Shown here piece after piece: positions 1-18,988 of a stretch of 23,827 nucleotides of DNA. The notes under the pieces are model-generated. The model was not told where the DNA came from, did no database searches, and saw nothing but the letters and a program-made list of their open reading frames with translations. This stretch comes from a virus. The stretch's first letter is position 1; each line of letters begins with the position of its first letter. Both the position numbers and the translations under genes were made by a program. The stretch covers positions 1-23,827 of the IMG/VR virus record IMGVR_UViG_3300030328_003764, one strand, 5' to 3'.

Positions 1-1839
1 TTCCTGTCCCTGCTGCTGCGAGAGAGTCTCAATTTCCCTCTTGATAGCAGAGGTAACACTCGCCGGGAGAGGAGCGTAATCGAGCAGAGCAATCGGAAAT
101 GTTCCTTGGCGAACGAGCATCGGCAACAACGGCTGCAAGTTCTCCCAAACGGCCATCTTCTGGTTAGGATCAGTAGGCGCGTCATCCAGCATCAAATCGT
201 AAGAATCTGCCAGATCGTCCTTGACCAGCTGCAAGTACTGACTGTTGTATGGACCGCCAATACGGATCCATCTTCCGTCCGTCAAAAACATTCGCATGAA
301 ATCCAAAGAAATCTTGGCTTCCGATTCACGATAACGAGCGTAAGAATTAAAGATGGGGGCCAGGATTGTAAGCCCCTGCGTCTGTCTTTTTTGAATGGCG
401 GGGCCAGCTTCCGCGCCTTCTGACTGACCGAGAACCTCCATGTTAATTCCGGTCACATCCCGCAAGGATTCAATGCTGTACTGAATCATGGTGGAAGCCG
501 CTTGGGGGAAGGGCGGTGGAGGCTCAACTTTGACCATGGACTGGGACAAAGCTCCGGGCTTTAGACCAATGATAGAACCCGGTCGCGACCAGTCCCGACT
601 GGCCTTCTGTGGGTTCTGGAAAGCGCCGGTTTCTGCCAGCATGGTGCCCTTGGGACTTACGCTGAACAGGTGTACACCGAGTGAGAAGTACTTGTTGGCT
701 CCGCGCTGCGGATCCTTCATGGCCCTGACAAGACCGTACCAGCACTTCTCCTTGGCATCCCACGTACAGGTCATGGCTTGGTAGGTAAAGTGATCAAACG
801 GCAAATCATCTTGTTGAAGGATAATGTTCCCGCAAACAAAGGCACGGTGGTATCTACGCTGATACTGCTGAACTGCGTTTATATCTTCGTTGATCTTTTT
901 TGAGCGCTTCTTCAGTTTCTTGAAGTCTTCGTCAGACAGGACAGTAATGTTGTTATTCTTGTCTGCCACACGGTAAACAGTGTGCCGCTCAAACCACTGA
1001 TACTCGATAACGTTAATATAGCCGCGATCGTTTGGGTTGCGTTCTGGAACATTAACCTTCTGCGTACCGTAGCTGGAAGTGCCCGGAGTCTCCGTAGTCG
1101 TCATGGTGTCGCCGCCACCGGGGGTGTAGTTGGTGTACTTCATACCGACCGGTGTTTGGGCGACGGGGTTAGTAATACTTGTGGGCTGAATACCCGAACC
1201 AGCGCCATAGATATTAAGTTGGTCCTGCTCCTGACCCGCAGCTTTAACCTCTGCTACCTTGTCAGGCCATAGCTGCCCTAACTCAGCAACCGTCATAACC
1301 TTCATTCGAGCGACCCATTTAGCATCGCCCAAGTTCTGCTGACGGGAATCCGGATCGTAGTACATATCCATACCGTCAACCTTGGTAAGGACAAACTTTC
1401 CGTCCAGATCTTCTTCATAATCCATGCGGTAGTTAACCCAACCGATACCGCGCACGATCATGTCTTTAAACGCCAGGGTGCGTTCGTACTCACCCCCGCA
1501 TTGCTCAAGTGCCCACGAGTACGCCTCTGTAGCCAGATCGGAAGCACCAGCAGACTGCTCGTTAGTAGGATCGCGAGGGATAAAGATCATCTTCTGGCGA
1601 TGCTGAATCTCAGTACCTACAATCGCGTTAACCATAGGGCCAATGCGGTTATATGTAATCGAAGGCTTGCCGTGCTCCTTTAGAGCGTTCTGATCTTCTT
1701 TCTCCCACTGATGACCGGCCACGAAAGCATCGTTCTCTTCCGCTTCTTTCCTCCAGTCGCCAAATGCGTCAGCAGACTTCTTTAGGTTATTGTGGATAGT
1801 CCTGACTAGGGAGAGATCTTCTGTATTATCAACTGGCAT
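1..1839 (-). CDS. P22-type portal protein (3' end beyond the window)
   Basis: The frame is open from an ATG at 1839 to the left edge: 613 codons without a stop. The product would form the dodecameric ring at the capsid vertex through which DNA is packaged and ejected. The N-terminal part carries sequence typical of the P22-like portal family: KPSITYNRIGPMVNAIVGTE, then HRQKMIFIPRD (approx. residues 51-84), and further on MVRGIGWVNYRMDYEED- and MDMYYDPDSRQ-like stretches. The central part includes the conserved-looking WYGLVRAMKDPQRGANKY segment, and the right-hand part contains SIESLRDVTGINMEVLG, as expected for the portal stem and wing region. It is the third gene downstream of the large terminase and overlaps its upstream neighbour by 11 nt, consistent with translational coupling in a packaging operon. 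P22-family portals are about 700 residues, so perhaps 100 residues are missing. Assignment by recognition of the family pattern, not by a search. Confidence 0.9.
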   Translation of the reverse strand, partial: MPVDNTEDLSLVRTIHNNLKKSADAFGDWRKEAEENDAFVAGHQWEKEDQNALKEHGKPSITYNRIGPMVNAIVGTEIQHRQKMIFIPRDPTNEQSAGASDLATEAYSWALEQCGGEYERTLAFKDMIVRGIGWVNYRMDYEEDLDGKFVLTKVDGMDMYYDPDSRQQNLGDAKWVARMKVMTVAELGQLWPDKVAEVKAAGQEQDQLNIYGAGSGIQPTSITNPVAQTPVGMKYTNYTPGGGDTMTTTETPGTSSYGTQKVNVPERNPNDRGYINVIEYQWFERHTVYRVADKNNNITVLSDEDFKKLKKRSKKINEDINAVQQYQRRYHRAFVCGNIILQQDDLPFDHFTYQAMTCTWDAKEKCWYGLVRAMKDPQRGANKYFSLGVHLFSVSPKGTMLAETGAFQNPQKASRDWSRPGSIIGLKPGALSQSMVKVEPPPPFPQAASTMIQYSIESLRDVTGINMEVLGQSEGAEAGPAIQKRQTQGLTILAPIFNSYARYRESEAKISLDFMRMFLTDGRWIRIGGPYNSQYLQLVKDDLADSYDLMLDDAPTDPNQKMAVWENLQPLLPMLVRQGTFPIALLDYAPLPASVTSAIKREIETLSQQQGQE

Positions 1840-2158
1840 CTTTTAGGTACTCTTCCACTTCTCCAACGATAGCCCAAGCCTTTTGACAAGGGCAGCTGTT
1901 ACGTCCGGGGATGTAATTAGACTCGCAAGCTGAACAACAGTCCTTATTAACCCTGCCGTCTGCAAAGCTAGTAGAGATTACCATTAAAACGTCCTTTAGG
2001 GTATCGGAGATCTCAATCAGCTTACCCCGACTGGCATCTTTAACTTCCCGGCGATTGACAGCTTTTGCCGATCTGGCAGCTCTAGCCTTGGCCAAGTTCT
2101 TACGGAGCTTGTCTTTAGTAGCCTCTGATACGTTACGCTTCTTCTTTTCTGTGGTCAT
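1829..2158 (-). CDS. small Cys-rich protein between large terminase and portal
   Basis: A 109-residue protein. I chose the ATG at 2158 because it forms an ATGA overlap with the stop codon of the large terminase gene; a TTG four codons upstream is also possible. The first half is strongly basic (MTTEKKKRNVSEATKDKLRK and an Ala/Arg/Lys-rich run), suggesting nucleic-acid contact. The second half has a compact Cys cluster, DCCSACESNYIPGRNSCPC, whose spaced CxxC and CPC pairs look like a metal-binding knuckle. The gene overlaps the portal start by 11 nt, so terL, this gene and the portal gene are likely co-translated. I do not recognise a named family. Its place suggests a packaging or head-assembly accessory, but this is inferred from position only. 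Confidence 0.72.
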   Translation of the reverse strand: MTTEKKKRNVSEATKDKLRKNLAKARAARSAKAVNRREVKDASRGKLIEISDTLKDVLMVISTSFADGRVNKDCCSACESNYIPGRNSCPCQKAWAIVGEVEEYLKDAS

Positions 2159-3642
2159 GCGCTCATCCAACCTTCGCCATCGTCTGTAGAATACATCTCA
2201 TTTTCCAGCTCTTCTTCTGTAAGAGGCCAGTCTAATTGTACCGTGTCATCCAGGAATCTGGACAACGCATCGATCATATCGTCATGGAAACCAGAGGGGA
2301 AAGTAAGGTACTCCTCGTTCCGGAATACCTTGACCAGATCCAGCTCCTCGCCCTCGAAGTTGGTGTACCAGAGGGATTTGGGGAACCATATGCGTCCCCC
2401 CTCAAACCAAGGAACCAGCCTGCGAACCCTCTCCTCCTTGGACAGCTTGCCGGCAACAGTCTGCAATCTGAACCGGTAATTCAGCTGTTCCATCTTCTCT
2501 GCCATATAGGCGTTATCTGCCTGCGCTCCGTACTGCTCATAGAGGACGCTACGAATAGGCTTCCACTTTCGGTGTAACCTAAACAGGCAATCAGCCCTTT
2601 CAGTAAGGGAGAACTTGTCCCTGACCATATCCAACAAATAAACGTTCCTGTCCTGAGACAAACCAATCACAGCCATAGCTGTGTAGTCAGAACGCTTCTT
2701 CTTGGAGTTGGCTGGATCAACCAAGATATATTTGGTCATTGACTTGGGATCGGTGTTCTCATACTGGGAAGAATCAAACCATTGGGCTTTAAACACCTCC
2801 CCGTCAGCACTACCTACGCGCTGCTGGTAAAGGCTGGTAAAATCACTAGATCCAATAGCCTTGCGAATACGATCCAGAGACATGCCACGTTCCCCATCGG
2901 GCAAGATCAATGGATAACGTTCCGGCCACAGAGCATCGCCCTGTTCACGCCAGCCTTCGTCCTTCTCTGCAATGGCGGGCATATTAAACAACTCCCACCC
3001 GTCATCCATGTGCTCTCGGAGAAGCCATCCCGCCAAATCGTCTTCGTGCCAGCGGGTCTGGATAATAAGCATCTTCCCGCCCTTCATAAGACGGGTGTAA
3101 ACGACACTGGTAAACCAATCATGCAAAAGCTGGCGAACACGTTCGCTGTTAGCTTCTTCGCGGTCCTTGATAGGATCATCTACGATAACTAGGTGCCCAC
3201 CACGGCCAGTGATGGATCCACCGCGACCCACGGCAAAGTACTGACCGCCAGATCGAGTAGCAAACTTCTGTACTGATGCGGAGTCTTCCGAAAGCTCAGT
3301 GCCGGGAAACACGGCGCTGTGCATCGGGTCTGCCATCAGGTTTCTTACTTTACGCCCGAAATCATCCGCCAGCTGTTGGGCATAAGAAGCCGTAATAACA
3401 TAATGATCGGGATTACGGCCAAGATACCAAGCAGGAAAAAAATGGCTGCAAAGATTAGACTTACCATGTCTAGGAGGCATCGTAACGATGACTCGATCCT
3501 TCTCTCCACACTCAACGGCATGGAGAACTTTGGTAAGATACTCAATGTGCTTTGGCCTCTCGAACTGGGGCCAAAGCAGCCTAGCATAAGCCGCTACGCT
3601 ATGACGAGCGAACTCAAGAGCTGCTTTCTGGTGATCATCCAT
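2155..3642 (-). CDS. terL: terminase large subunit (TerL)
   Basis: A 495-residue, complete packaging motor and nuclease. The N-terminal ATPase has a Walker A motif MPPRHGKSNL (approx. residues 55-64), a Walker B motif HLVIVDDP (150-157) and the coupling-type motif QTRWHEDD (195-202). The C-terminal RNase H-fold nuclease begins with YILVDPAN (305-312, Asp309), and ends with a FPSGFHDDMIDALSRFL segment, whose acidic pair is typical of the last metal-binding motif. The enzyme would translocate DNA into the prohead through the portal and cut the concatemer. The ATG at 3642 overlaps the end of the upstream gene by 8 nt, and the stop overlaps the next ATG (ATGA), so the packaging genes form one translationally coupled operon. 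The length fits the family. Whether packaging is headful or site-specific cannot be read from the sequence. Confidence 0.96.
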   Translation of the reverse strand: MDDHQKAALEFARHSVAAYARLLWPQFERPKHIEYLTKVLHAVECGEKDRVIVTMPPRHGKSNLCSHFFPAWYLGRNPDHYVITASYAQQLADDFGRKVRNLMADPMHSAVFPGTELSEDSASVQKFATRSGGQYFAVGRGGSITGRGGHLVIVDDPIKDREEANSERVRQLLHDWFTSVVYTRLMKGGKMLIIQTRWHEDDLAGWLLREHMDDGWELFNMPAIAEKDEGWREQGDALWPERYPLILPDGERGMSLDRIRKAIGSSDFTSLYQQRVGSADGEVFKAQWFDSSQYENTDPKSMTKYILVDPANSKKKRSDYTAMAVIGLSQDRNVYLLDMVRDKFSLTERADCLFRLHRKWKPIRSVLYEQYGAQADNAYMAEKMEQLNYRFRLQTVAGKLSKEERVRRLVPWFEGGRIWFPKSLWYTNFEGEELDLVKVFRNEEYLTFPSGFHDDMIDALSRFLDDTVQLDWPLTEEELENEMYSTDDGEGWMSA

Positions 3643-4093
3643 CCTGGCTCTCGATTTCTATAGTAGTGGACTTGTAATCCTCTGCCAGCTTCTTAACTTC
3701 GTCCTGAGAGACGTTCATGTGCAGATGGAGAGTCTGGTTGCTCTTTGAAGCATGCTTATCAGCAACGCCCATGATCTTGGCCTGTGTCTCAAGAATCTGA
3801 GCAAGCACCTTAAGCCCAGCGATAGCCGTGTGATAAGACTCCGCCTCACGGGCTTCTTGAATGATATCCTTGGTGTCAGTGATCGCCTCATCAAGCGCGC
3901 TGACTACCTTGGTTGTATATCCTTCGTCTTGGGCCAACTGAACCGCCGTTTCCTTTTTGTGCGTTAGTGCAACGTCTGAGGTCATGCTCGCCAAGGGCTT
4001 GCCGTTCCCAAAGATTATTGATGTGTCAATTTCGTGTCGCCTACTGGATCTACAAGCAGGACAATTATCAGAATGTCGTTTTGAGGGAGTCAT
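3635..4093 (-). CDS. putative terminase small subunit
   Basis: A 152-residue protein encoded immediately upstream of terL and overlapping it by 8 nt, the usual place of the DNA-recognising small subunit. Visible features are an N-terminal CPACRSSRRHEID segment, which could be half of a zinc knuckle or resembles the treble-clef starts of phage HNH-like or TerS-like proteins; a predicted mostly helical middle (approx. residues 55-115, rich in Ala, Glu, Gln); and an acidic C-terminus. Small terminases are poorly conserved, so the call rests mainly on position, size and helical content. The ATG at 4093 has no clear Shine-Dalgarno sequence. A sigma70-like promoter ends only about 15 nt upstream, so the mRNA may be nearly leaderless. 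An alternative is a DNA-binding head protein unrelated to packaging. Confidence 0.62.
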   Translation of the reverse strand: MTPSKRHSDNCPACRSSRRHEIDTSIIFGNGKPLASMTSDVALTHKKETAVQLAQDEGYTTKVVSALDEAITDTKDIIQEAREAESYHTAIAGLKVLAQILETQAKIMGVADKHASKSNQTLHLHMNVSQDEVKKLAEDYKSTTIEIESQDG

Positions 4094-5859: not shown

Positions 5860-6126
5860 ATGACATTCAAGATTGACATTGATACTGAAGGAAAATTGCA
5901 GAAGCCAGTAAGAAAAATGCTGGCGACTGAGGTGCCCGAAGATGTGCTGGCTATGCTGAATGATTACCTTGATAAGACTAATCTTAGAAAGGTGGAAGTT
6001 GTTCGGCAAATGGTTTTGTTTTGCTTGCGAGATTTGGGGTACTCGGGAGCGGAACAATACATTAAACCTCTCGCTCCCAAATCAAACATGAATTGGGGAA
6101 GAGGTAAGGAACAGAGATCTGATTAG
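5860..6126 (+). CDS. ribbon-helix-helix-like DNA-binding protein
   Basis: An 88-residue protein with a strand-helix-helix pattern: a short strand MLATEVPEDV (approx. residues 20-29), helix LAMLNDYLDKTNLR and a second helix KVEVVRQMVLFCLRDLGY (to residue 61). This matches the layout of ribbon-helix-helix (Arc/CopG/MetJ-type) repressors, which dimerise and read DNA with the paired strand; the N-terminus and C-terminus are charged extensions. The start is an ATG with AGAGGTGA upstream. It lies between a terminator and the large swivel-protein gene, which suggests it regulates its own operon or neighbours. RHH proteins such as the plasmid omega repressor bind runs of 7-bp sites, so the TGTTACA heptads at 9.3-9.6 kb and 4138 are natural candidate targets. 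The fold assignment is from pattern only; no helix-turn-helix repressor is visible elsewhere in the window. Confidence 0.65.
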   Translation: MTFKIDIDTEGKLQKPVRKMLATEVPEDVLAMLNDYLDKTNLRKVEVVRQMVLFCLRDLGYSGAEQYIKPLAPKSNMNWGRGKEQRSD

Positions 6127-6219: not shown

Positions 6220-8481
6220 ATGACTGATGTAGTTAGGACACAGAAAGCAAGAAGCGTTCAATCTGTTTCGGATTGGGTGAACAGTACAAGTGGCATGAGC
6301 ATGCACTTGGATGTGCCTGCCTTTTGGCTTATCCAATCTAGGCCAGGGTCAGCTGATAATTATCCGAGTTGGGTAAGCGAATACTTTAGAGAGTGTGAAG
6401 AAATCAGTGACCCCAATCCTCATCACACTCATAATAAGCCTGTCTTTGCACGTTGCTGTCCTGTTAATCCAGCTCATGGATTTGAGGACAGCATTATTGT
6501 TAAGTCTCGTCTTGAGCTGCGTAATCTTTGGGACAAGATGATCGAGACAGATCCCAATGGTGAGATACTTCTCATGCAGTATGTCAGCTCAACTTCAAGC
6601 TCTATCATTACACCATACACATTGACTGTAGGTAAGGGCCATGACGGTGCAACTAATGGAGACGATCCTCTTACTCTAGCTTACGATTCAACTACGAGTG
6701 ATGGATTGCTTAACGATAGTTGGGGTGACTTGGCTAGTCAGTCGGGCGTTGGTAATGATGGTGACTGGAAGCCATCTGATCCTGATGCGAAGCATCCTTT
6801 TCTTGAGATTGTTTGCAATAGGCATCGCATGTTTCATATGCACGATCATGCCGAGGCCTTTGGCATGGGGAACAATAATCTTAGAAGGGACAATCGTAAT
6901 TGGATTGTTCAGTGCCGCAAGGGTGAACATGTTCAATCAGGGATGAAGGACTTTGTACCCAAGGACTTTGAAGTAAAGAAAGTTATTTATCCTACTGGAA
7001 AAGAAACTCTTATTGAGTGGCGAGACAGGATGGCCAAGGTCAGTCAGGATAGCGATGGCTCAGGTGTAGCTGTCTATCACCACAAGGGAGCTATCACTTC
7101 CCATTGGGGTATCAATTGTATGGAGTATAACATCCCATACTTTACAACCTATGAGCCATCGATAGGAAACAAGATTAGGGCGAAGGACTTTATTCAATCT
7201 AGCTACGAGCATATTGATTCGGAAGTTGTTGACGGTATCTGGTTGGCTACTGTTAATAATGAAAACGATCCTGTTCATGGAGTACATACTCCTTCTACTG
7301 TTACATATCCCGAAGCTGTAGACATGATGCTCTTTGGTCTGCACAACTATCGTCTTCAGTCACCAAGGGTGGGCAGTAGGTTGCTCGGCCTAGCTATTGG
7401 ATCGGCCATGCGTCTTCTTCAAGCAGCTTGCTTGGGTGAGCTAAGACATAACAAGAAGACTGGTTTGTCTAGACAGCAGATCTTCCAAGCATCTTGGACT
7501 GACTATCTTTACGGACAGAAGAAGATGATCAAGGCATGGCGAGCATTTAGAGATGAGTCGTGGTCGTCAGGCTATGGAGGTCATGCTTGGGCTGAGTGTG
7601 CATCGAGCCAGCTTGAGATGCACATGATCTCTGAAACTTATGCCAAGTACCATGGTACTGCTAACTATAAATCTCTTGTTGATGCGTTCAACATCGCAGT
7701 TAATAGAGCGCACAATAATGGATGGGTCTTCAATAAGTTTGCAGATAGAGGTGTCTTCGATGCAGCTGCTGAATCTAATGTTAGGTTTGCTGCTGAATGT
7801 ACTTCAGTCCTTAATCATTACGGCAAGTTTATTTCTGAAGGCAAGGCAGCCTTGTCCAATACGGTTCTTGGTACTGCTTTTGTTTCGCATAGACGTAACT
7901 GGAAAAAGCAAAGACCAAACAAACTGAATGTTCAGTTGGCCTATGATGCCAAGATGAATAAGCATGTACTTGTTGATCTTGATTACCTGAAGAACATTGG
8001 AAGTGATGTCGCTACTTACTTGACGAGTCTTCATCCAGGACCTCCCAAGTTCATGGTACTTCTTAACCTAAGAACACTCTCGAACAAGAGAGTTAATACT
8101 GTTCATCATGTAATCCATATTCAATATGGGCAATACGATTCACAGAAAACTGATAGGCCTACTCAGTACGGCAAGATTGATGTACCTATTAACAACAGTG
8201 ATGCCGGTAATTCTTTGGTTGAAAAGATTCAACTTAACTTAGACTCAGATGACTGTGAGTATGTGAAGAGCATGGCCGGTACTCATACTGTCTATGCCGT
8301 AGGCCACGTTTATCCGTATGCTCATTCGGGAACTTATGTCCTTAAATGTCAAGACCCTAATGACACAAACACTAGGTTTACAATAGGGACAATCGATGAC
8401 CCTGATTTTCACAGGGCATACACCAAATGGAAAGAGGAGGAGCAAGCATATGTCGCGCAGGAAGAAGAAGAAAAAGAATAA
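6220..8481 (+). CDS. phosphohistidine swivel (PEP-synthase-like) protein, 753 aa
   Basis: The ATG has AAAGGAGA at ideal spacing. Residues about 281-310 read as a divergent PEP-utilising mobile domain: SGVAVYHHKGAITSHWGINC followed by MEYNIPYFTT. In PEP synthase, PPDK and rifampin phosphotransferase the equivalent segment has (T/S)xHAAI...E.GIP, with the His carrying the phosphate; here His295 is in place. Just upstream NWIVQCRKGEH (227-237) matches the 'VQaRP' strand that ends the ATP-binding part of those enzymes, and a second such motif, FWLIQSRPGS, lies at 35-44. Residues 113-140 (NGEILLMQYVSS...) could be a remnant of the ATP-grasp core. I see no PEP/pyruvate-binding barrel: the C-terminal 380 residues are a helical region (SWSSGYGGHAWAE near 448) and then a beta-rich part of unknown type. 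It overlaps a phosphatase gene. AT-richer than the replication genes. Likely transfers phosphate from ATP to an unknown acceptor, by inference. Confidence 0.72.
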   Translation: MTDVVRTQKARSVQSVSDWVNSTSGMSMHLDVPAFWLIQSRPGSADNYPSWVSEYFRECEEISDPNPHHTHNKPVFARCCPVNPAHGFEDSIIVKSRLELRNLWDKMIETDPNGEILLMQYVSSTSSSIITPYTLTVGKGHDGATNGDDPLTLAYDSTTSDGLLNDSWGDLASQSGVGNDGDWKPSDPDAKHPFLEIVCNRHRMFHMHDHAEAFGMGNNNLRRDNRNWIVQCRKGEHVQSGMKDFVPKDFEVKKVIYPTGKETLIEWRDRMAKVSQDSDGSGVAVYHHKGAITSHWGINCMEYNIPYFTTYEPSIGNKIRAKDFIQSSYEHIDSEVVDGIWLATVNNENDPVHGVHTPSTVTYPEAVDMMLFGLHNYRLQSPRVGSRLLGLAIGSAMRLLQAACLGELRHNKKTGLSRQQIFQASWTDYLYGQKKMIKAWRAFRDESWSSGYGGHAWAECASSQLEMHMISETYAKYHGTANYKSLVDAFNIAVNRAHNNGWVFNKFADRGVFDAAAESNVRFAAECTSVLNHYGKFISEGKAALSNTVLGTAFVSHRRNWKKQRPNKLNVQLAYDAKMNKHVLVDLDYLKNIGSDVATYLTSLHPGPPKFMVLLNLRTLSNKRVNTVHHVIHIQYGQYDSQKTDRPTQYGKIDVPINNSDAGNSLVEKIQLNLDSDDCEYVKSMAGTHTVYAVGHVYPYAHSGTYVLKCQDPNDTNTRFTIGTIDDPDFHRAYTKWKEEEQAYVAQEEEEKE

Positions 8482-9328
8482 TGGACAGGAGTCTACTATT
8501 AATTACCCAACACCCGATGAGCTTGAGGCCAGGGGTGAGAGTCAGTGCGTTAGCTTCCTAACACAGAATGGATTTGCTGACATGCTGGACTACGAAGACT
8601 GGTATGATCAGATGAATCCGGATTGGGATGTTAAAGAGGAGGATGACATGAAAGATTGGTTTGGAAGTGGTGGGACAAATGATACGCCCACCTCTTTGAC
8701 TAAGTTTAAAAACAATTCAACTACATACAAGGCACCATCTACTGGTAAGCAGGGGACCCTGTATCCAGGCACAAGCTATGTATCCAAGAAGTCTTGTCCG
8801 ACTCACGACGGAACTCAGATTGTATTCCGCCGGGGTAACGACAAGTTTATGAAGGAGGTTGCCGGGGCACAGGGCGCACATGTTCTAGTTGAACCCGAGC
8901 TTAAGTTGGTCATTGATCTCGCAGGTATGTTCCATCCTCCCGAGCCAGACACACTTAAGTTTACACCGGGCACGAACGACTGCGCTTACCAAGATAAGAT
9001 GGATCAGCTCTCATCCCATCTGTATCAGCCAGCTGTTCTGGATATTAAATGGCAGGACATGGGTGTTCCTCCATTGGACTTCCCTTTCTGGAAAGATCTT
9101 TGGTCGATCCTCCCTAATGGACGTACAGTTGTATGCTGCTTTGGTGGTCATGGCAGAACGGGCACAGCTCTCGCTTGTCTGTTGATGGCAGCTGACAAGA
9201 GTATCACTGCCGAGAAAGCCACGGCAGTTATCCACACCAAGCACTGTGAAAATGCAATCGAAAGCTCAAGCCAGGAGAAGTACCTCAAGAAGATCCAAGC
9301 TCAGAGAGATGAGATGCTTGCAGCCTGA
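8450..9328 (+). CDS. Cys-X5-Arg (PTP/DSP-like) phosphatase
   Basis: A 292-residue protein starting at an ATG inside the 3' end of the swivel gene (32-nt overlap) with AAAGAGGAGG upstream. The active-site loop is VVCCFGGHGRTG (approx. residues 227-238), a full C-x5-R-T/S-G signature with nucleophile Cys230 and Arg236. WQDMGVPPLDFPFW (201-214) is placed as the general-acid loop would be, with Asp203 or Asp210. The N-terminus is a Lys tract (MSRRKKKKK) and an acidic, low-complexity stretch to about residue 100, so the catalytic domain is the C-terminal half. Tight coupling to the swivel protein suggests that it removes or controls the phosphate that the partner adds, or that both act on one nucleotide or protein substrate. 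Could be protein-, lipid- or RNA 5'-phosphatase; the substrate cannot be told from sequence. Confidence 0.85.
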   Translation: MSRRKKKKKNNGQESTINYPTPDELEARGESQCVSFLTQNGFADMLDYEDWYDQMNPDWDVKEEDDMKDWFGSGGTNDTPTSLTKFKNNSTTYKAPSTGKQGTLYPGTSYVSKKSCPTHDGTQIVFRRGNDKFMKEVAGAQGAHVLVEPELKLVIDLAGMFHPPEPDTLKFTPGTNDCAYQDKMDQLSSHLYQPAVLDIKWQDMGVPPLDFPFWKDLWSILPNGRTVVCCFGGHGRTGTALACLLMAADKSITAEKATAVIHTKHCENAIESSSQEKYLKKIQAQRDEMLAA

Positions 9329-9331
9329 CCC

Positions 9332-9638
9332 TGTTACACCTGTTACATGTTACAGGTCACATCGACATATAAGCCAGAGAGGTGGGGCTACCCCCTCTTC
9401 TATAGTATAATAATAATATTAATATAGAAGATTATATGTAACATGTAACAGAACAGGAATAACTCCCATGGCTACTACGCTTTTCCTGTTACACCTACCA
9501 CTACCACTACCTGTAACATCTGTAACATCATATCAATATACCTAGTATAAACATGTACTTACATACATGTGTTTTATTCCTGTGTTACACGTTACACCCA
9601 CACCAAACACTATCCCGTTACATGTGTTACATGTAACA
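9332..9638. repeat. TGTTACA/TGTAACA heptad array
   Basis: The units point both ways, in direct, inverted and abutting arrangement, unlike a CRISPR (no spacers of constant length). Chance would give about three copies in the whole window; eleven fall in about 310 bp here. Confidence 0.9.
9397..9430. other. AT-only segment within an inverted repeat
   Basis: CTTCTATA (9397-9404) and TATAGAAG (9423-9430) flank 18 bases that are A or T except one G. It lies between heptads at 9348 and 9437 and could be the easily melted part of a replication origin. Confidence 0.5.
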
Positions 9639-9660
9639 TAACCAAACTTTGGAGAAACCA

Positions 9661-10176
9661 ATGACTAAAGAAGAAGATATTAACCTGACCCCTATCAAAA
9701 TGTTACAGGTATCGCTGCTCCCTATGCCCGGTGATTCCAATTCATGGCGCGCTCATTTCCAATACGGAACCCGTGGCATGAAGGAGGATGGAGCATATGT
9801 TTCTCGAAGCACCTTGCTTGAAGACAGAGAGGCTGTGCTTATTACAAAAACATTCACCAATCACACACGTTCTCTTCGCCCTGGATCTGCCAGCATTTAC
9901 TTCAGCCTCAACAAACCTGGCTACATGGAGGCAGAAGATCCTGTCCTTATACATAACTGCATCGATCGCCAGACTCTCGTGTCTTATATCAGAGGTACGA
10001 TTAACCACCTCTGGCCCGAGGAACAATCCTTCCAAGAAAAGGTAGAGGAAGAACTCAAGTCCGAAGCCAGGGATGTAGCAAAGGAGATGGAAGAGATTAA
10101 TCCTGGCAGTACCTTGAACACAATCCTTGACGATCTTCTTAATGAGGGACAAAAGAAGAAAGAAACTTTCCATTAA
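9661..10176 (+). CDS. hypothetical protein downstream of the heptad array
   Basis: A 171-residue protein; the ATG has TTGGAG 7 nt upstream. No family recognised. The first part (to about residue 105) looks like a compact alpha/beta domain with RAHFQYGTRGMKEDGAYVSR and RPGSASIYFSLNKPGYMEAE; the second part (105-171) is a charged helical tail, with QEKVEEELKSEARDVAKEME suited to a coiled coil. No membrane segment. One TGTTACA heptad lies inside its coding sequence (9701-9707), so the array may extend over its start and control it. It could encode the protein that acts at the array, but no DNA-binding motif is visible. It is followed by a terminator at 10248. Confidence 0.78.
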   Translation: MTKEEDINLTPIKMLQVSLLPMPGDSNSWRAHFQYGTRGMKEDGAYVSRSTLLEDREAVLITKTFTNHTRSLRPGSASIYFSLNKPGYMEAEDPVLIHNCIDRQTLVSYIRGTINHLWPEEQSFQEKVEEELKSEARDVAKEMEEINPGSTLNTILDDLLNEGQKKKETFH

Positions 10177-10186
10177 CAATTAGCCA

Positions 10187-10225
10187 TTGACATTTACCCC
10201 AGGGTTAACCTCCTTTTCCCAGGGT
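10187..10225 (+). promoter_or_regulatory. possible -35 box and CCCAGGGT direct repeats
   Basis: TTGACA at 10187-10192 is a perfect -35 hexamer but no good -10 follows at 16-18 nt. CCCAGGGT is repeated at 10198-10205 and 10218-10225, a 20-nt period, as an operator or activator pair might be. Weak evidence. Confidence 0.25.
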
Positions 10226-10247
10226 ATTTCCTATATGTCAGTGGTTA

Positions 10248-10295
10248 GGGACCAGGACTTGAGCCGTTCCACTTAAGTCCTGGTCCCATTTTTTT
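10248..10295 (+). terminator. strong intrinsic terminator just before the 10306 gene
   Basis: A 13-bp perfect stem GGGACCAGGACTT (10248-10260) with AAGTCCTGGTCCC (10275-10287), a 14-nt loop and seven Ts (10289-10295). The next gene's Shine-Dalgarno (GGGAG) starts one base after the T-run, leaving no room for a promoter. Confidence 0.93.
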
Positions 10296-10305
10296 GGGAG
10301 ATGAT

Positions 10306-10587
10306 ATGGACAACAAGACTATAAAGAAACCTTTAACCGAGATCACAAGACCGGAGTACTTAGAGTTCATGGAAAAGAGAGGAGCCAAACCAACCAGCTA
10401 TCACAACTGGAAGAAGGCATGTCTTAACATAGCCAAGAACAGGTACGGCATATCGTTGTACGACATGGTTAGTGACGACGAGGAAATCTTCCAAGGATTC
10501 TGGGATCATATACCTAGCGAGAAGTTCGTGGATGAAAGAGCAAAGAAACATAACCTTATCAACATGGAAGAGGTGGCAAAGAAATGA
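10306..10587 (+). CDS. hypothetical small protein
   Basis: A 93-residue, charged, helical protein. The ATG at 10306 has GGGAG at 10296-10300; a TTG four codons earlier lies in the terminator T-run. The pattern TRPEYLEFMEKRGAKPTSYH then NWKKACLNIAKNRYGISLYD suggests two or three helices packed in a small domain, and ACLNIAKNRYGISLYDMV looks like a conserved-family motif, but I cannot name it. The start is directly downstream of a terminator, so translation depends on read-through or an internal promoter. Its stop overlaps the next ATG (ATGA), so at least three genes follow as a coupled set (10306-11289). Likely an early, host-directed phage gene by position. Confidence 0.75.
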   Translation: MDNKTIKKPLTEITRPEYLEFMEKRGAKPTSYHNWKKACLNIAKNRYGISLYDMVSDDEEIFQGFWDHIPSEKFVDERAKKHNLINMEEVAKK

Positions 10588-10967
10588 GCCGAGTTTATTT
10601 TGATCATGTCGATGAAGACAGAGAAGTTTGTATTGGTTTGGACAAGCCAACTAACAGTTGGTTCATTCAGATTTGGAAGTATGGCTGCGAGCAATGCGGA
10701 TCCGACGTAGATTACATGGAGAAAGAACACAACTACCATGGCGGTCAACGCATGGACATGCTCGAGACAGTGGAGCCATTGATCAAGAAGGAATCAGATG
10801 AAGTCAAAGAGTACTGGTCCAAGGTCAAGCAAGCTGTTGTCTTGGACCTTGATCCAGGGGATGTACCTAGATCTGACGATGTACCATTGACCATGAGTCA
10901 CGAGCTTGTGGATGTGATCAAAGAGTTTATGAACTCACCAACACTGGACTCTAAAGATGGACATTGA
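10584..10967 (+). CDS. hypothetical protein
   Basis: A 127-residue protein starting in an ATGA overlap with the previous gene, with GAGGTGG upstream. It begins with a beta-rich stretch, YFDHVDEDREVCIGLDKPTN then SWFIQIWKYGCEQCGSDVDY; the CEQC pair could bind a metal but a second pair is missing. The C-terminal half is helical and acidic (ELVDVIKEFMNSPTLDSKDGH). No named family recognised. Overlap with both neighbours suggests one operon with fixed ratios. Confidence 0.72.
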   Translation: MSRVYFDHVDEDREVCIGLDKPTNSWFIQIWKYGCEQCGSDVDYMEKEHNYHGGQRMDMLETVEPLIKKESDEVKEYWSKVKQAVVLDLDPGDVPRSDDVPLTMSHELVDVIKEFMNSPTLDSKDGH

Positions 10968-11289
10968 TTTTGAGCGTAATCATCTTGGCGCATGGCACCT
11001 TAAACACAATGCAAGTTACAAGATCCAGTGCAAAGACAAAGCAATAAACAACTCTGGTTGGTACGACATCAAGGTATCTACGGATACACCCAGCCCGCAC
11101 GGGTGGATCTATACCGTGGAGCTGTACGATACATACGAATCAGCACTGGCTGAGATGACTGTGCTCAAAGAAGAGAAACCATATAGCAAAAATTTCTTGC
11201 GTGTTATGTGGGAGAACCACCCAGAGGACTGGGATCCATACAGTTATGATGGACCACATGACGATACGATTGATGAAATGCTCACGTAA
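10957..11289 (+). CDS. hypothetical protein
   Basis: A 110-residue acidic protein. The ATG overlaps the end of the previous gene by 11 nt. The middle has alternating strands (SGWYDIKVSTDTPSPHGWIY, TVELYDTYESALAEM) and the C-terminus is Asp-rich (HPEDWDPYSYDGPHDDT). Unknown function; similar small, acidic proteins are common in early regions of phages, where some mimic DNA, but nothing here shows that. Confidence 0.72.
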   Translation: MDIDFERNHLGAWHLKHNASYKIQCKDKAINNSGWYDIKVSTDTPSPHGWIYTVELYDTYESALAEMTVLKEEKPYSKNFLRVMWENHPEDWDPYSYDGPHDDTIDEMLT

Positions 11290-11322
11290 TACGGCACGTA
11301 TAGATGCGAGTAGTGAGCAAGC

Positions 11323-11362
11323 ACAGGGGCTTGGACTTAGGTTCAAGCCCCTGTTTATTTTA
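11323..11362 (+). terminator. intrinsic terminator just before the 11374 gene
   Basis: A 14-bp stem with one G-U pair, ACAGGGGCTTGGAC (11323-11336) with GTTCAAGCCCCTGT (11341-11354), TTAG loop, then TTTATTTT. The next Shine-Dalgarno, AAGGAG, begins within the last bases of the T-rich run, again without room for a promoter. Confidence 0.9.
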
Positions 11363-11373
11363 AGGAGAAGACC

Positions 11374-11568
11374 ATGACAAAGAAAAAGACTTACGACCTT
11401 ATCGTAAAGACTTACGACCTTGACGAACTCAATGAATACTTTCAGATACCAACCGTGCTACCACCTGATCTCGAAGAGAAAGAGATAGCAACCTTGCCCG
11501 ATGGACGGAAGATCCTGTCCTTACTACCAGCTGATCAGGTAGAGAAAGAGGAGGAAGATGATGGTTAA
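11374..11568 (+). CDS. hypothetical small acidic protein
   Basis: A 64-residue protein with AAGGAG 7 nt upstream of its ATG. KTYDL is repeated near the start (residues 5-9 and 12-16) because a 16-bp sequence, AAAGACTTACGACCTT, is duplicated at 11385-11400 and 11406-11421. The C-terminus is very acidic (EKEEEDDG). Function unknown. It overlaps the next gene by 8-11 nt. Confidence 0.7.
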   Translation: MTKKKTYDLIVKTYDLDELNEYFQIPTVLPPDLEEKEIATLPDGRKILSLLPADQVEKEEEDDG

Positions 11569-11875: not shown

Positions 11876-11918
11876 ATGGCAGAGCATGGCTAACAACCAT
11901 GCTCTGCCATTTTTTTTT
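11876..11918 (+). terminator. strong intrinsic terminator at the end of the small-gene block
   Basis: A 14-bp perfect stem ATGGCAGAGCATGG (11876-11889) with CCATGCTCTGCCAT (11897-11910), 7-nt loop, then nine Ts. The T-run covers the stop codon of the minus-strand primase gene. Facing the primase there is only an A-run before the hairpin, so it acts chiefly on plus-strand transcripts. Confidence 0.93.
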
Positions 11919-14106
11919 AAATTTTTGCCGCAGCCGAACCCTCTACGTCGTTGGCCGAGCCGCACTCCTCAACGTAAGCAGCCCACACTTCGCTACCCTT
12001 CTTGCTTTCCATATATTCTCTGGCCCACACACGCACCTGCCTGCGCTGGCCCGACGCACCAGCGTCAGCCATCATCTGCTTGAAGCCTTCATCTCTAAGG
12101 TAGCCACCTACCCTGCGGCTGAAAGCCATGGTCGATTTGCTTACGTGATCGTAGCCAAAGACAGCTCGTGCTGCGTCGTCGATGCGGATGACCGAGCGTG
12201 TTTCGACAAGGCCCCTGATGATCTCCTCCTCTGGACCAACGATCCTTCTAAGTTCCCTGCCTGTATTTAGATCTGCCATTACCTCTGGTGCAATGACCAG
12301 TCTCTTGTTGTCACGGTAGGATTGGACAGCCTCCGCTAACAATTGGCCACGGTTCTTTATCATCTCCTCGAAGTTAAGTTGTCCAACACGCACGGGTAGG
12401 TAGCGACGGTTACTTGTATCTATCAGGTACGTCGAGTCGTTCGTCGTGCCGGCAAAGACGAAGGATCTTTTACGATGCGTAACGTTCTTTGCGTAGGGTC
12501 GTCGGAAGCTGTCACTCTTTTTGGTAAGGAAGGACTTGAGAGTTTCCACTTCCGATTTACGGAGAGCAGTAAGCTCGCCCATCTCGACAATCCAGCACTG
12601 CTCACTATGTAGTTTTCTTGCGATCTCATCTTCACCCTTCCTGTCTAGCTCAAGGTTAGTTTCTATGTGGTACTCACCACCCAGAATCCTGAGTGCGGAT
12701 GTCTTGCCCACACCCTGCTCGCCCTCAAGTATCATGGCGTAATCAAACTGCACCCCAGGATCCAAGACTCTTGCGACCGCACCCTTCAACCACACCTCAC
12801 CTATCTCTCTGTTGGCAGGCGTGTCATCAGCACCGAACAAGTCTATCAACCAAGAGCCAAGCCGTGGCGTACCATCCCATGTGATTGTAGTTAGCCAGTC
12901 CTTCAGATCATCGAAGGGTCTGTCGCTAGCTGCACGGAGGATGGCATCGTTGACTGACTCCTTGCTAAACTCACAGCCTACCTTGCGGATGATCCATGTC
13001 TGTATGCAGTTGATATCTACGTCAGTGACAGGGCGTGGCTGCTCGTCACCCTCACGGTCACGCACCTCGGCAGGTAACTTAACGAACACCATGTCGGAAC
13101 GTTGGTTGTGCCAGATACCTTGCAGCTCGGCGGCGCACTTAAAAATTTGGCGCAAATTTTCTGCGTCCTTAACTACCTGACCCTTGGCAGTTAGCCTTAG
13201 ATCCCACTCATCTCTGGCCGAGAACTTAAGTGCGAATCCCCACGGCGCACGGCTCTTGTTCTCTGCGTCAGTTATCTTGTGCTGTATATCTTTCTCTGAC
13301 CATGGGTAATTATCCCCGGTCTTCCCGTCGATACACTTGGGGTTGAACACCTCGTCAAAGATCTTGGCTGCATCTGCCTGCTCCAAGCAGTAGCCACGGG
13401 TAACTACCACAGCTGCACGGAACGCAGCCGTGTGGCCAGCGGCACCTGCGATGCTGCCTTCCATCTTGTCCAGCGCCCGCCGTGCCCATGCTATCCTGTC
13501 CTCGGTAGGCGGCAGCGATGCCTGCGTTGGCCGAGCGCCAGTCTCATCCACACCTATCTTGCTTGCGTTCTTGAACGCCAGTGCCCACTCATCAGGTGCA
13601 GGGCACAGCTCGTTCTCTGGCCCACGCTCCCACTTGTATGTCTCACCCGACAGGTGAGGGGAGGGAGGACACACGAGGAATCCATTGACCTTGATCTCCA
13701 CACCCGGAGCGAACGTGTTAAGATTACCCTTTGGCCATTCACCTTTCTCCAAGTAGATGTGGTATCCACCGCTACCAGTCAGCACCCTCGGTGTAGCACC
13801 GGGCAGCGGGCCAAGGATCTTTACCAGTTCATCGAGGCTCTCCAGCCCTCCGTTCTTCGGGTCAACATCAATGCAAATAAAATTTCTGATGGGGATACCC
13901 AGCCCACCCCCACCATCTATGTGTTGCTGTATTTTTTCTGCGTCATCTACTACGGCAGCAGGCCCACCGATGGGGTGCTTGCCCGCACATTTCTCCGGCT
14001 CCTCCCCATCGCACGAACATCGCTTAAGTCCTTTATCGAATGGGTAAACGAGCACTCTCTCCACAGGTAACTTCAATTTATTCTCCTTAATATTGTGGTT
14101 AGCCAT
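11917..14106 (-). CDS. Prim-Pol / VirE-type (SF3-like) helicase, bifunctional replication protein
   Basis: About 729 residues. N-terminal Prim-Pol domain: a CSC...C...H patch (approx. residues 30-44), catalytic IDVDP (79-83), SGGYHIYL (112-119) and GVEIKVNGFLVCPPS (135-149). C-terminal helicase: Walker A GEQGVGKT (463-470), Walker B-like WIVEMGEL (506-513), FAGTTND sensor (552-558) and NRRYLPV (567-573), as in the virulence-associated E family. It would synthesise primers and unwind DNA at the phage fork. The start is uncertain: the ATG at 14106 lacks a Shine-Dalgarno, while a TTG at 14076 has a perfect AAGGAG 6 nt before it; both keep all motifs. It is the only minus-strand gene between 4.4 and 22 kb, convergent with the small-gene block and divergent from the integrase block. 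Confidence 0.93.
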   Translation of the reverse strand: MANHNIKENKLKLPVERVLVYPFDKGLKRCSCDGEEPEKCAGKHPIGGPAAVVDDAEKIQQHIDGGGGLGIPIRNFICIDVDPKNGGLESLDELVKILGPLPGATPRVLTGSGGYHIYLEKGEWPKGNLNTFAPGVEIKVNGFLVCPPSPHLSGETYKWERGPENELCPAPDEWALAFKNASKIGVDETGARPTQASLPPTEDRIAWARRALDKMEGSIAGAAGHTAAFRAAVVVTRGYCLEQADAAKIFDEVFNPKCIDGKTGDNYPWSEKDIQHKITDAENKSRAPWGFALKFSARDEWDLRLTAKGQVVKDAENLRQIFKCAAELQGIWHNQRSDMVFVKLPAEVRDREGDEQPRPVTDVDINCIQTWIIRKVGCEFSKESVNDAILRAASDRPFDDLKDWLTTITWDGTPRLGSWLIDLFGADDTPANREIGEVWLKGAVARVLDPGVQFDYAMILEGEQGVGKTSALRILGGEYHIETNLELDRKGEDEIARKLHSEQCWIVEMGELTALRKSEVETLKSFLTKKSDSFRRPYAKNVTHRKRSFVFAGTTNDSTYLIDTSNRRYLPVRVGQLNFEEMIKNRGQLLAEAVQSYRDNKRLVIAPEVMADLNTGRELRRIVGPEEEIIRGLVETRSVIRIDDAARAVFGYDHVSKSTMAFSRRVGGYLRDEGFKQMMADAGASGQRRQVRVWAREYMESKKGSEVWAAYVEECGSANDVEGSAAAKI
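11947..11958 (+). repeat. 12-mer GTCGTTGGCCGA, copy 4
   Basis: Exact copy within the last codons of the primase gene, on its antisense strand. It begins 20 nt after the second T-run (11922-11926) following the 11876 terminator, the same layout as copies 1-3. Confidence 0.75.
13524..13534 (+). repeat. partial 12-mer (CGTTGGCCGA)
   Basis: Ten of the twelve bases match at the 3' side. It lies inside the primase gene with no terminator before it, so it may be a chance or decayed copy. Confidence 0.3.
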
Positions 14107-14142
14107 TGGCGAAGGGCATACTCTGCTGTAAAACGCATCGCC

Positions 14143-14313
14143 ATGCAAGAGTACGAACCGGGGTTGATTTGTCAGGGCTGTTACGTATTATTCCGTCCAT
14201 TCCGTACTGTAACCAAGGACCACACACAAAGATGCCCTGATTGTGGGGAGGAAGTGTGGCCAGAATTGAAAGGAAAACATGTGATGGAAGACACCAAGAA
14301 GGAAGATCTATGA
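14143..14313 (+). CDS. small zinc-ribbon protein
   Basis: A 56-residue protein with two Cys pairs, CQGC (residues 10-13) and CPDC (32-35), a classic zinc-ribbon spacing, followed by GEEVWPELKG. Such mini-ribbons often bind nucleic acid or RNA polymerase. The ATG at 14143 has no good Shine-Dalgarno; a GTG at 14095 is possible but would reach into the primase start region. Divergent from the primase gene; its stop overlaps the next ATG (ATGA), so it heads the rightward block. Confidence 0.7.
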   Translation: MQEYEPGLICQGCYVLFRPFRTVTKDHTQRCPDCGEEVWPELKGKHVMEDTKKEDL

Positions 14314-14549: not shown

Positions 14550-15452
14550 ATGAGCACAGCTCAGAACTGGGTGGACTCTATCGAACGGCCAGACACACGG
14601 GCCAACCGATCAGCAGTCCTCAATCGTATAGCTAATTATTTAAACCCAGGATCTAACTTAGAAACATTTGATTGGACAAAGGTAACTCGGCAGGATGCAC
14701 AACGACTGAAGGATTACTTTCTAAACGATCGGAAGATGAAGCCGACAAGCGTAAGGTTTCAACTGTCCACTCTTCGATCAGTACTACGCTACCATGTAGA
14801 GGAAGGGCTGCTGTCCAGTGATGTACTGGCAAGAGTCCGGGCGGTTAACCTACCCGCCAACCCAACAGTAGGACACACAGGCAGGGCACTCTCTCGTATG
14901 GAGATGGGTACTATCTTTGGCCTTGAGTCAAGGACACCTGTGGACAGGATGGACATTGCTATCTTCTCTGCCCTTGTAACCACAGGCATGAGAGTGTCCG
15001 AGCTTTGCTCCGTCAAGGACGAACAGCTCAAGCCCACGGGTGCCATCAGGTTCATGGGCAAGGGCAGCAAGGAGAGGGACACATGGTTGTCCGGACCCAC
15101 CTCCTACTACTTGGATCTACACAAGGAGGACTGCAACAGGGAACTACCGTGGTTGTTCCAGAACGTGGGCAACCGCACACCCGGCAGGCTGGACAGGTTC
15201 CATGTTCGAGCCAGCCTCAACAGGTTGTGTCGTCGGTCGGGCGTTCCGACGTTCACACCACACGACTGCCGAAGAACAGTGGCTACAATTTTATTGGACG
15301 AAGGTGTTGACCTTTTAATTGTATCTGATTTACTCGGCCATTCCTCCGTCGAAGTCACCAAACTTTATGATCGACGGGATGAGCAAACTAAAATAGATGC
15401 GCTCAAAAAATTGCAAGGATATATGGAGAGCTATGACTATGGAAACGAATGA
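14550..15452 (+). CDS. int: tyrosine recombinase / phage integrase
   Basis: A 300-residue, apparently intact enzyme. An N-terminal SAM-like core-binding domain (approx. residues 1-100) leads to a catalytic domain with all expected residues: Arg148 in TTGMRVSEL, Lys171 or Lys174 in GKGSKERD, His238-Arg241 in TPHDCRRT, His264 in LLGHSSV and nucleophile Tyr273 in VTKLYDR. It would cut and rejoin attP and attB, or resolve dimers. It overlaps the next gene by 14-20 nt and heads the replication module. No obvious attP core or tRNA fragment lies beside it, so the site may be elsewhere, or the enzyme may resolve multimers rather than integrate. Confidence 0.95.
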   Translation: MSTAQNWVDSIERPDTRANRSAVLNRIANYLNPGSNLETFDWTKVTRQDAQRLKDYFLNDRKMKPTSVRFQLSTLRSVLRYHVEEGLLSSDVLARVRAVNLPANPTVGHTGRALSRMEMGTIFGLESRTPVDRMDIAIFSALVTTGMRVSELCSVKDEQLKPTGAIRFMGKGSKERDTWLSGPTSYYLDLHKEDCNRELPWLFQNVGNRTPGRLDRFHVRASLNRLCRRSGVPTFTPHDCRRTVATILLDEGVDLLIVSDLLGHSSVEVTKLYDRRDEQTKIDALKKLQGYMESYDYGNE

Positions 15453-17107: not shown

Positions 17108-18988
17108 ATGTTCGGCGCAGATTGGTTTACCAAAGTACCCGAATCTGATTGGCAACCACCCTCCGAATTCCCTGACCTATCTGCTGCCGATAAGATTGCC
17201 GTTGACTTAGAAACCAACGACCCTAACCTAAAGGATCACGGCCCCGGCTGGGCCACAGGCAAGGGCAACATCGCTGGTATCGCAGTAGCCGTGGAGGATT
17301 GGAAGGGTTACTTTCCGATCCTCCACGAGAACGGCACCAACATGGACAGAGACATGGTGCTCCGCTGGATGCGGGACGTTATGTCCGACGACAAACAAGA
17401 CAAGGTGTTCGCTAATGCTACCTATGATGTAGGCTGGCTGAAGCGAGAAGGTGTCGAGGTGAAGGGGCGCTGGCTTGATGTTCAAGTCGCCGCCCCTTTG
17501 TTGGATGAGAACGCCAGAAGCTATTCGCTTAACGCATTAGGTGAGCACTACCTTAAGGAAACAAAGAGCGAGTCGTTGCTGTACGATGCGGCTGAAGTCT
17601 TTGGGTTCGATCGCAGGCAGGCCAAGGGTAAGATCCATGTCCTCCCCCCGCAGTACGTAGGTATCTACGGTGAACAGGATGCAGACCTGACACTTAGATT
17701 GTGGGATCACCTTTGGCAATTAATCCAGAGCAAAAACCTGGAAGAGATCTTTGATCTTGAGACTAGGTTAACCCCCGCTCTGTTCCAGATGAGATGGGAT
17801 GGGGTAAGGTTCGATGAAGCCAAGGCTAACTTGCTCCGCACTAACTGGACTAACTCCTATGAATCTATCCTTTGGGAATTGAAAGAGAAGGCAGGCAAGG
17901 AGGTAGATATCTGGGCGGCAGCTAGCATCCACGAGGCAGCAGTGTCGGCAGGGATCAAGGACTTCCAGTGGACAGCGACAGGCAAGCCATCGTTCACCTC
18001 TGCCATACTGGAGGAATCTAATGATCCGTTTCTTAAAAAGATTAAGCAGGCGAGAAAGATTAGCAAAGGTCTACAGTTCATCACCAGCCTCATCGAATGT
18101 TCCGCGCAAGGGAACGGGAGGATCCACGCACAGATACACCAACTACGTGGAGACGACTACGGAACTGTCAGCGGCAGACTCAGTTACAGTAACCCTAACC
18201 TTCAACAGATCCCCACAAGGGACCCAGAAATTGGAGCGCCTCTTCGTTCTCTTTTCCTCCCAGAAGAAAACGAGCGCTGGATATCTGCGGACTACTCAAG
18301 CCAAGAACCTCGGGTGCTCATGCACTACGTGGTCAAGCGGGATTTTGCTCCGGATCATCCTCTGGTTCGCGAGTACACAACCAATCCAGATGCGGACTTC
18401 CACGCCTTGGTATCAGAACAACTAAACATCTCTCGGTTCCAAGCCAAGACTATCAACCTTGGCATCATGTATGGGATGGGCAAGGCAAAGCTGGCAGCAC
18501 AACTCGGAGTCAATCAATCCGACGCAGAGCTTATCCTTAACAAGTACCACACGCAGTTCCCCTTCGTTCGCCAGCTTAAGAAGCTGTGCGAATCCATCGC
18601 CAAGAAGACAGGGGAGATAGGTACGCTGGCGGGGAGAAGGTGCAGGTTCAACCGCTTCTCTCCTCGTGGTCAGTACGGGGTAGCTGCATTGCCAATGGAA
18701 GAAGCCCTTAAGAAGTGGCCAAGGCTGGAGCTTGAACGAGCCTATACCTACCGTGCGCTCAACCGATTGATCCAAGGGTCGGCTAGTGACCAGTGCAAGA
18801 TTGCTCTTACCAAGCTGCACGAACAGGGCATCGTCCCGAAGATAACTATCCACGACGAGGTGTGTGCCAGTGGCGACGAAGATACCATGCGTACAATCAT
18901 TGACTGCATGGAGAACGCAGTCGAAACCAAGGTCCCGTTTAAAGTAGAGGCCAGCATGGGCGACACATGGGGCGGCATCGCAAAGTAA
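17108..18988 (+). CDS. polA: family A DNA polymerase with 3'-5' exonuclease
   Basis: 626 residues. The proofreading exonuclease has Exo I VDLETN (Asp33, Glu35), Exo II FANATYDVGW (Asn103, Asp107) and Exo III YGEQDAD (Tyr187, Asp191). The polymerase has motif A SADYSSQEPR (about 406-415), motif B RFQAKTINLGIMYG (443-456) and motif C IHDEVC (about 583-588). The residue aligned with E. coli Phe762 is Leu451. No 5'-nuclease domain, as usual for phage Pol A. It would be the replicative polymerase of this phage, following the SSB-like gene with one base between and feeding into the small genes after it. ATG at 17108 chosen; an upstream start would overlap the previous gene. Confidence 0.97.
   Translation: MFGADWFTKVPESDWQPPSEFPDLSAADKIAVDLETNDPNLKDHGPGWATGKGNIAGIAVAVEDWKGYFPILHENGTNMDRDMVLRWMRDVMSDDKQDKVFANATYDVGWLKREGVEVKGRWLDVQVAAPLLDENARSYSLNALGEHYLKETKSESLLYDAAEVFGFDRRQAKGKIHVLPPQYVGIYGEQDADLTLRLWDHLWQLIQSKNLEEIFDLETRLTPALFQMRWDGVRFDEAKANLLRTNWTNSYESILWELKEKAGKEVDIWAAASIHEAAVSAGIKDFQWTATGKPSFTSAILEESNDPFLKKIKQARKISKGLQFITSLIECSAQGNGRIHAQIHQLRGDDYGTVSGRLSYSNPNLQQIPTRDPEIGAPLRSLFLPEENERWISADYSSQEPRVLMHYVVKRDFAPDHPLVREYTTNPDADFHALVSEQLNISRFQAKTINLGIMYGMGKAKLAAQLGVNQSDAELILNKYHTQFPFVRQLKKLCESIAKKTGEIGTLAGRRCRFNRFSPRGQYGVAALPMEEALKKWPRLELERAYTYRALNRLIQGSASDQCKIALTKLHEQGIVPKITIHDEVCASGDEDTMRTIIDCMENAVETKVPFKVEASMGDTWGGIAK

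Follow-up and report, generated by a model that had tools for sequence, protein, structure and literature searches.

A two-orientation array of TGTWACA heptads as the probable iteron-type replication origin of a phage with a Prim-Pol/VapE primase-helicase

Gene content of the window

The window, which is the whole stretch of DNA analyzed here (IMG/VR record IMGVR_UViG_3300030328_003764, 23,827 nucleotides), is a 23.8-kb linear virus fragment with a G+C content of 50%, and its features are collected in Table 1. The only initiator-type protein found in it is a 743-residue Prim-Pol/VapE-like (SF3) primase-helicase with matches to PF09250 (9.6e-17), PF05272 (6.4e-63) and PF19263 (1.4e-4, below the cut-off of that family). 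A structural model of its residues 380–743 has PriRep1 bound to dsDNA as the best match (PDB 7pds, E 1.6e-18), followed in order by the C-terminal region of NrS-1, poxvirus D5/E5 and the SaPI5 primase-helicase. Past the helicase, the same model predicts a helix-helix-strand-helix-strand-strand arrangement at low confidence (pLDDT about 40–60). The 3′ end of the VapE gene faces the repeat array described below at a distance of 2.3 kb, so that the array is not immediately 3′ of the proposed initiator gene. The tyrosine recombinase gene sits among the replication genes, no lysogeny regulator was recognized, and two Pam3-like proteins were detected by Pfam. The GC skew of the window, a genome fragment, tracks gene direction.

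The genes flanking the array (6220–10176) are mostly orphans. The open reading frames (ORFs) starting at 6220 and 9661 have no relatives among viral contigs and phage records, barring a weak match at 19% coverage for the former; for this 753-residue protein (6220–8481), no family was recognized, and the sole partial match, a weak one, was in Manatee Spring phages. The product of ORF 8450–9328, directly upstream of the array, carries a tyrosine/dual-specificity phosphatase signature (PTP-SAK, PF22784, E 1e-6, above the cut-off), which is unusual phage cargo.

Table 1. Coordinates of the repeat array and of the genes considered in the window
Feature	Position	Strand	Basis
Portal	1–1839		By eye only
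Terminase large subunit	2155–3642		Homology
Presumed small terminase	3635–4093		By eye only
Small protein, RHH per first-pass annotation (RHH identity unsupported); rival explanation only	5860–6126	+	
Intergenic region with array, proposed replication origin	9329–9660	.	ORF limits, G+C, 7-mer cluster search
Left iteron set, TGTTACA at 9332, 9341 and 9348, spacings 9 and 7	9332–9354	+	
82-bp core, left set to first inverted pair; proposed melting region	9355–9436	.	
Short G+C-rich hairpin GGGG...CCCC in core	9384–9395	+	
A+T-rich inverted repeat, arms 9396–9407 and 9420–9431, A/T-only run 9406–9426	9396–9431	.	
Inverted iteron pair TGTAACATGTAACA; 9437–9451 100% complementary to 9340–9354	9437–9450	-	
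Single TGTTACA iteron	9487–9493	+	
Inverted iteron pair TGTAACA-TC-TGTAACA, spacing 9	9512–9527	-	
TGTTACA iteron and near match CGTTACA, spacing 7	9583–9596	+	
Near match CGTTACA, TGTTACA (9625), back-to-back TGTAACA (9632)	9616–9638	+	
Outlying TGTTACA in ORF 9661–10176	9701–9707	+	
Prim-Pol and VapE-like (SF3) primase-helicase, 743 aa, proposed origin-binding initiator	11917–14148	-	Pfam and fold
Tyrosine recombinase	14550–15452		PF00589
Family A DNA polymerase, likely primer extension	17117–18988	+	PF00476 4.9e-55
Nuclease counterpart	19268–19681		By eye only
SNF2-type helicase; same replication gene set in other VapE phages	20202–21662	+	PF00176 5.8e-21; neighbours

Architecture of the array

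The gap between ORF 8450–9328 and ORF 9661–10176 measures 332 bp, has a G+C content of 37%, and holds eleven exact TGTWACA heptads within 307 bp (at 9332, 9341, 9348, 9437, 9444, 9487, 9512, 9521, 9583, 9625 and 9632), all of them intergenic. Two near matches with the sequence CGTTACA are interspersed at 9590 and 9616, and a twelfth exact heptad lies outside the main array at 9701, within ORF 9661–10176. These counts agree with the first-pass annotation, which had claimed eleven exact heptads in about 310 bp, two near matches and one more in the next gene; its AT-only core was likewise recovered as an A/T-only run inside an AT-rich inverted repeat. The array is real and non-random. In the whole window, TGTWACA occurs 15 times against 2.3 expected from dinucleotide shuffles, none of 100 of which reached 15, and simulation of the gap with a local first-order Markov model gave a mean of 0.29 heptads and a maximum of 4, with none of 20,000 simulations reaching 11. 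The top clustered 7-mer of the whole window is the array motif, the runners-up derive from this array too in a shifted or overlapping register, and within the window a two-orientation heptad cluster with more than six copies occurs in the array region only.

When the flanks of the heptads are aligned, conservation stops at 7 bp, and adjacent heptads are spaced by 7 or 9 bp and not uniformly by an unspaced 7 bp. Because TGTTACA is an odd palindrome (TGT-N-ACA), the “orientation” of a site rests on its central base pair only; with this reservation, the direct, inverted and back-to-back layout described at first pass holds for the sites as they are arranged. Part of the left set, TGTTACA-CC-TGTTACATGTTACA, forms together with the pair TGTAACATGTAACA at 9437 a perfect 15-bp inverted repeat (9340–9354/9437–9451). 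The left sites read T-T-T at the central position and the next sites A-A, i.e., opposite directions across the 82-bp core, and further mixed sites lie beyond. The core between these iteron sets is 65% A+T, compared with 50% for the contig, includes a 21-bp A/T-only run, and as ssDNA folds better than its shuffles (z -2.6). The short hairpin within the core is possibly the transcript end of the phosphatase gene; it did not score as a terminator in the scan for promoters and terminators, which gave chance-level results only.

TGTWACA arrays in other genomes

True relatives of the array region were not found, and distant phages were therefore used in their place for the comparative tests. The nearest relatives by terminase, contigs L088 (72%) and L089 (50%), lack the array region; no TGTWACA array occurred among 80 loci of PolA relatives, the pattern search gave no close viral contig for the window VapE, and megablast of two array contigs against phages returned no matches. 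Nothing on point was found in the literature for the TGTWACA motif or for VapE together with iterons.

A search pattern of three heptads was matched by at least 120 viral contigs and by at least 118 bacterial or archaeal genome records. Many matches exceed this pattern, with 8–12 sites in 400 bp, a spacing of mostly 7–9 bp between neighbours of the same direction and an often mirror-symmetric arrangement, and among the matches listed, two-orientation TGTWACA arrays recur across unrelated phages. The pattern read backwards was found in none of the 50 records checked. Non-redundant arrays with five or more sites numbered 110 among the matches listed. The largest gap measures 80–112 bp in 28 arrays, including that of the window (89 bp); the direction of the sites flips across it in 26 of these 28, and these gaps average 72% A+T versus 58% for their contigs. 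In seven of 50 array records the array is essentially of one orientation.

Several matches are of separate interest. Three genome contigs of Prevotella/Prevotellaceae carry mirror-symmetric arrays whose central bases read AAAA, a 123-bp gap and TTTT (L225, 1487–1662), TTTT, a 142-bp gap and AAAA (L231, 606–798) and TTT, a 118-bp gap and AAA (L214, 1643–1800). The repeats of Chryseobacterium contigs (L222, 5266–5352; L219, 178–224; L270, 3514) are mostly one-orientation TGTWACA with an exact 8-bp period and look like a different kind of repeat. Matches of one orientation with an 8- or 9-bp period (e.g., L159, L177, L219 and L317) were not considered further, since they probably represent coding or tandem repeats. 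A PolA-related phage contig (L059, 13926–14192) contains about 22 tandem copies of the 12-bp unit CGGCTACGGATA.

Association with SF3/VapE helicase genes

Among the viral matches listed, the most frequent Pfam domain in the nearest neighbours of the arrays was DUF5906 (9 of 77), followed by D5_N (5), VapE and Terminase_2 (4 each) and Pox_D5 (3); DUF5906 also led among the listed arrays of bacterial genomes (4 of 68, with VapE in 2). Of 50 non-redundant array records, 21 carried DUF5906 or VapE, and DUF5906 was present in none of 43 array-free PolA-related records, a contrast not to be over-read since the control records have a single DNA polymerase type in common and are no neutral sample. In 13 of the 21 DUF5906/VapE records, the array is no more than 1.6 kb from the helicase domain, compared with 5.0 expected from random placement (P 5e-5). 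In L150, L166, L171, L188, L206, L217 and L253, the array follows the 3′ end of a gene homologous to the window VapE. An SF3 helicase was not detected in the remaining 29 of the 50 array records, many of which are fragments. In L092, the array (10864–11071) overlaps a D5-type helicase reading frame (8525–11422) in its 3′ portion, and origin and coding sequence may thus coincide there.

An independent test was made with named phages selected solely by a homologue of the window VapE, disregarding repeats and taking the stretch around the gene. Of the 14 loci in which two-orientation heptad clusters occurred at all, 8 had the top one just 3′ of the VapE gene, against 1.3 expected (P 8e-6). The heptads of this set are phage-specific: TGCAACA in Paenibacillus phage TonyLawson77, GGGACAA in Corynebacterium phage Dina, ATCGGAC in Ruegeria phage V16, GTGGTCA in Streptococcus phage SG586P3 and CTGTCCC in Pseudomonas phage Haddon. 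In several Bacteroidales phages with VapE, no iterons were found in the stretches examined. The gene order in several VapE-chosen phages is polymerase, VapE, iterons, small nuclease and SNF2-like helicase, and the window has the same gene set bar the nuclease, of which a counterpart was recognized by eye only. Similarity at the C-terminus among VapE proteins does not track a shared heptad, and VapEs beside TGTWACA arrays are no more similar to the window VapE in their C-termini.

Comparison with known origins

The closest precedents are found in phage P4, the phage-inducible chromosomal islands (PICIs) and Streptococcus phage Sfi21. In the P4 record, TGTTCACC is annotated as an 8-bp type 1 repeat that occurs both in crr, situated just 3′ of the alpha gene, and in ori, about 2.3 kb beyond the other end of this gene. 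P4 ori1/crr and the window share short two-orientation iterons (mostly 9–11 bp apart in P4 when adjacent), A/T-rich stretches, an SF3/D5 primase-helicase and one array 2.3 kb from its gene. In contrast to the window, P4 uses another motif, the primase of alpha is of the Toprim type and that of the window protein a Prim-Pol, and a second array, none of which was seen in the window, lies beside the helicase gene. The placement of P4 ori indicates that adjacency to the initiator gene is not obligatory; record G003 provides another precedent for a non-adjacent array, even though an origin directly 3′ of the initiator is usual in PICIs, Sfi21 and P4 crr.

The record of Sfi21 annotates a 302-bp non-coding origin 3′ of orf382, a DUF5906/Pox_D5 gene. 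This origin resembles the window array in its succession of tandem sites (GTTAC), A/T-only core and inverted sites (GTAAC), whereas its motif is GTTACT instead of TGTTACA, its helicase gene is adjacent and its sites are fewer. A DUF5906 match is common to alpha, orf382 and the window VapE, that of the last being below the Pfam cut-off. In PICIs, including the SaPIs, two sets of iterons always flank an AT-rich region of the origin (PMC6092414), and as in the window a self-loading primase-helicase is encoded, with PriRep1 and the SaPI5 protein among the fold matches given above. Unlike the window phage, which has its own terminase and polymerase and a proposed origin placed otherwise, PICIs/SaPIs are satellites whose origin is directly 3′ of pri-rep. 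The C-terminal domain of SaPI Rep recognizes the iterons directly downstream of its gene, and that of Cch2 binds the downstream repeat region specifically (PMC7581432). In P4 alpha, a winged-helix domain binds the origin repeats, and for prim-pol phages stem-loops have been proposed (PMC4234260). ORF904 of pRN1 combines, like the window protein, Prim-Pol and SF3 domains, in ORF904 together with a winged-helix domain, and a cis element is located downstream of its gene (PMC4234260); the pRN1 origin is a stem-loop, in contrast to the iterons of the window.

Possible mechanism and alternative explanations

Based on the layout of the array, the family and fold of the helicase, and the repeated co-occurrence of such arrays with helicases of this type, we propose, with a probability of about 0.7, that the array serves the phage as an iteron-type replication origin like those of P4, PICIs and Sfi21, to which its own Prim-Pol/VapE primase-helicase binds. 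The VapE protein may bind the TGTWACA heptads, probably via a putative C-terminal winged-helix domain. With site sets of opposed direction on the two sides of the AT-rich core, ring helicases could assemble on either side, and these rings may then melt the core at the A/T-rich repeat. Following melting, the primase domain of VapE could prime, and the family A polymerase of the phage would extend the primers.

The best-surviving alternative, itself unlikely, is an operator array, at which a small phage DNA-binding protein, e.g., the product of ORF 5860 or 9661, binds cooperatively and controls the operon from 9661. The array does fill the ORF 9661 leader to within 22 bp of the ATG, sites spaced by 7 and 9 bp would fit binding by cooperative dimers, and a phage repressor family of PHROG is weakly matched by the 5860 protein (E 0.01). 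However, promoter-like sites are at chance level and on the opposite strand, and arrays elsewhere are often at the 3′ ends of helicase genes rather than at promoters. This alternative bears on the likeness to an RHH repressor of the omega type suggested by the first-pass annotation. The omega operators of pSM19035 are runs of 7-bp sites in both orientations. The window heptad differs from the omega consensus, its spacing is 7 or 9 bp, no RHH Pfam match was obtained for the 5860 protein, whose single-sequence model was poor and had no PDB match, and RHH_1 was found in none of the 50 array records (the window and 49 others); the likeness is not supported. These results make an RHH repressor less likely without removing it, as small proteins of this fold easily escape detection when divergent.

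Less probable still is an origin recognized by another protein, either a host factor or an unseen phage initiator. The non-adjacency of array and VapE gene, the fragmentary contig, from which further initiators may be missing, and the differing C-termini of VapEs beside the same heptad are compatible with this explanation, against which stands the absence of any initiator-type protein other than VapE among those found in the window, as well as the recognition by this protein class of its own iterons.

Packaging provides a further, highly improbable explanation, in which the array is a pac site or binds the terminase small subunit. Among the matches listed, about 27 redundant array loci were grouped by a small-terminase-like protein, whose gene is often less than 300 bp from the TGTWACA array, and in the separate list of nearest neighbours given above four were Terminase_2 members. 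The presumed small terminase gene of the window, on the other hand, is 5.2 kb from the array, and clusters in the phages chosen by VapE are found after that gene. The small-terminase group includes L111, L176 and L190, with an SF3 helicase about 10 kb from the array in L111 and L176; it possibly reflects a second role or another genome layout, and TGTWACA arrays may accordingly have more than one role. Least probable of all is a partition centromere bound by a ParB/omega-type protein: repeat arrays of such size are typical of centromeres, but no ParA-like partner was present among the proteins scanned (part of the ORFs of an incomplete contig), which leaves this option without a partner gene, and RHH_1 is absent from the array records; of the functions listed at first pass (origin, centromere or operator), the origin is the one well supported by comparison.

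Implications for phage replication

Returning to the array as an origin bound by VapE, the chances are about even that the heptad is lineage-specific, that TGTWACA has been reached repeatedly by helicases with unlike C-terminal domains, and that an origin may be located at a distance from the gene of its initiator. The more interesting outcome is the occurrence of lineage-specific heptad arrays beside SF3 primase-helicases across ordinary phages, which extends to them an origin layout thought to be special to phage satellites. Pairing of helicases with their iteron sets could allow the recognition code of the C-terminal domain to be derived. Furthermore, as the origins of most uncultured phages are unknown, the heptad-array signature together with one class of primase-helicase would allow their prediction from sequence in many viral contigs.
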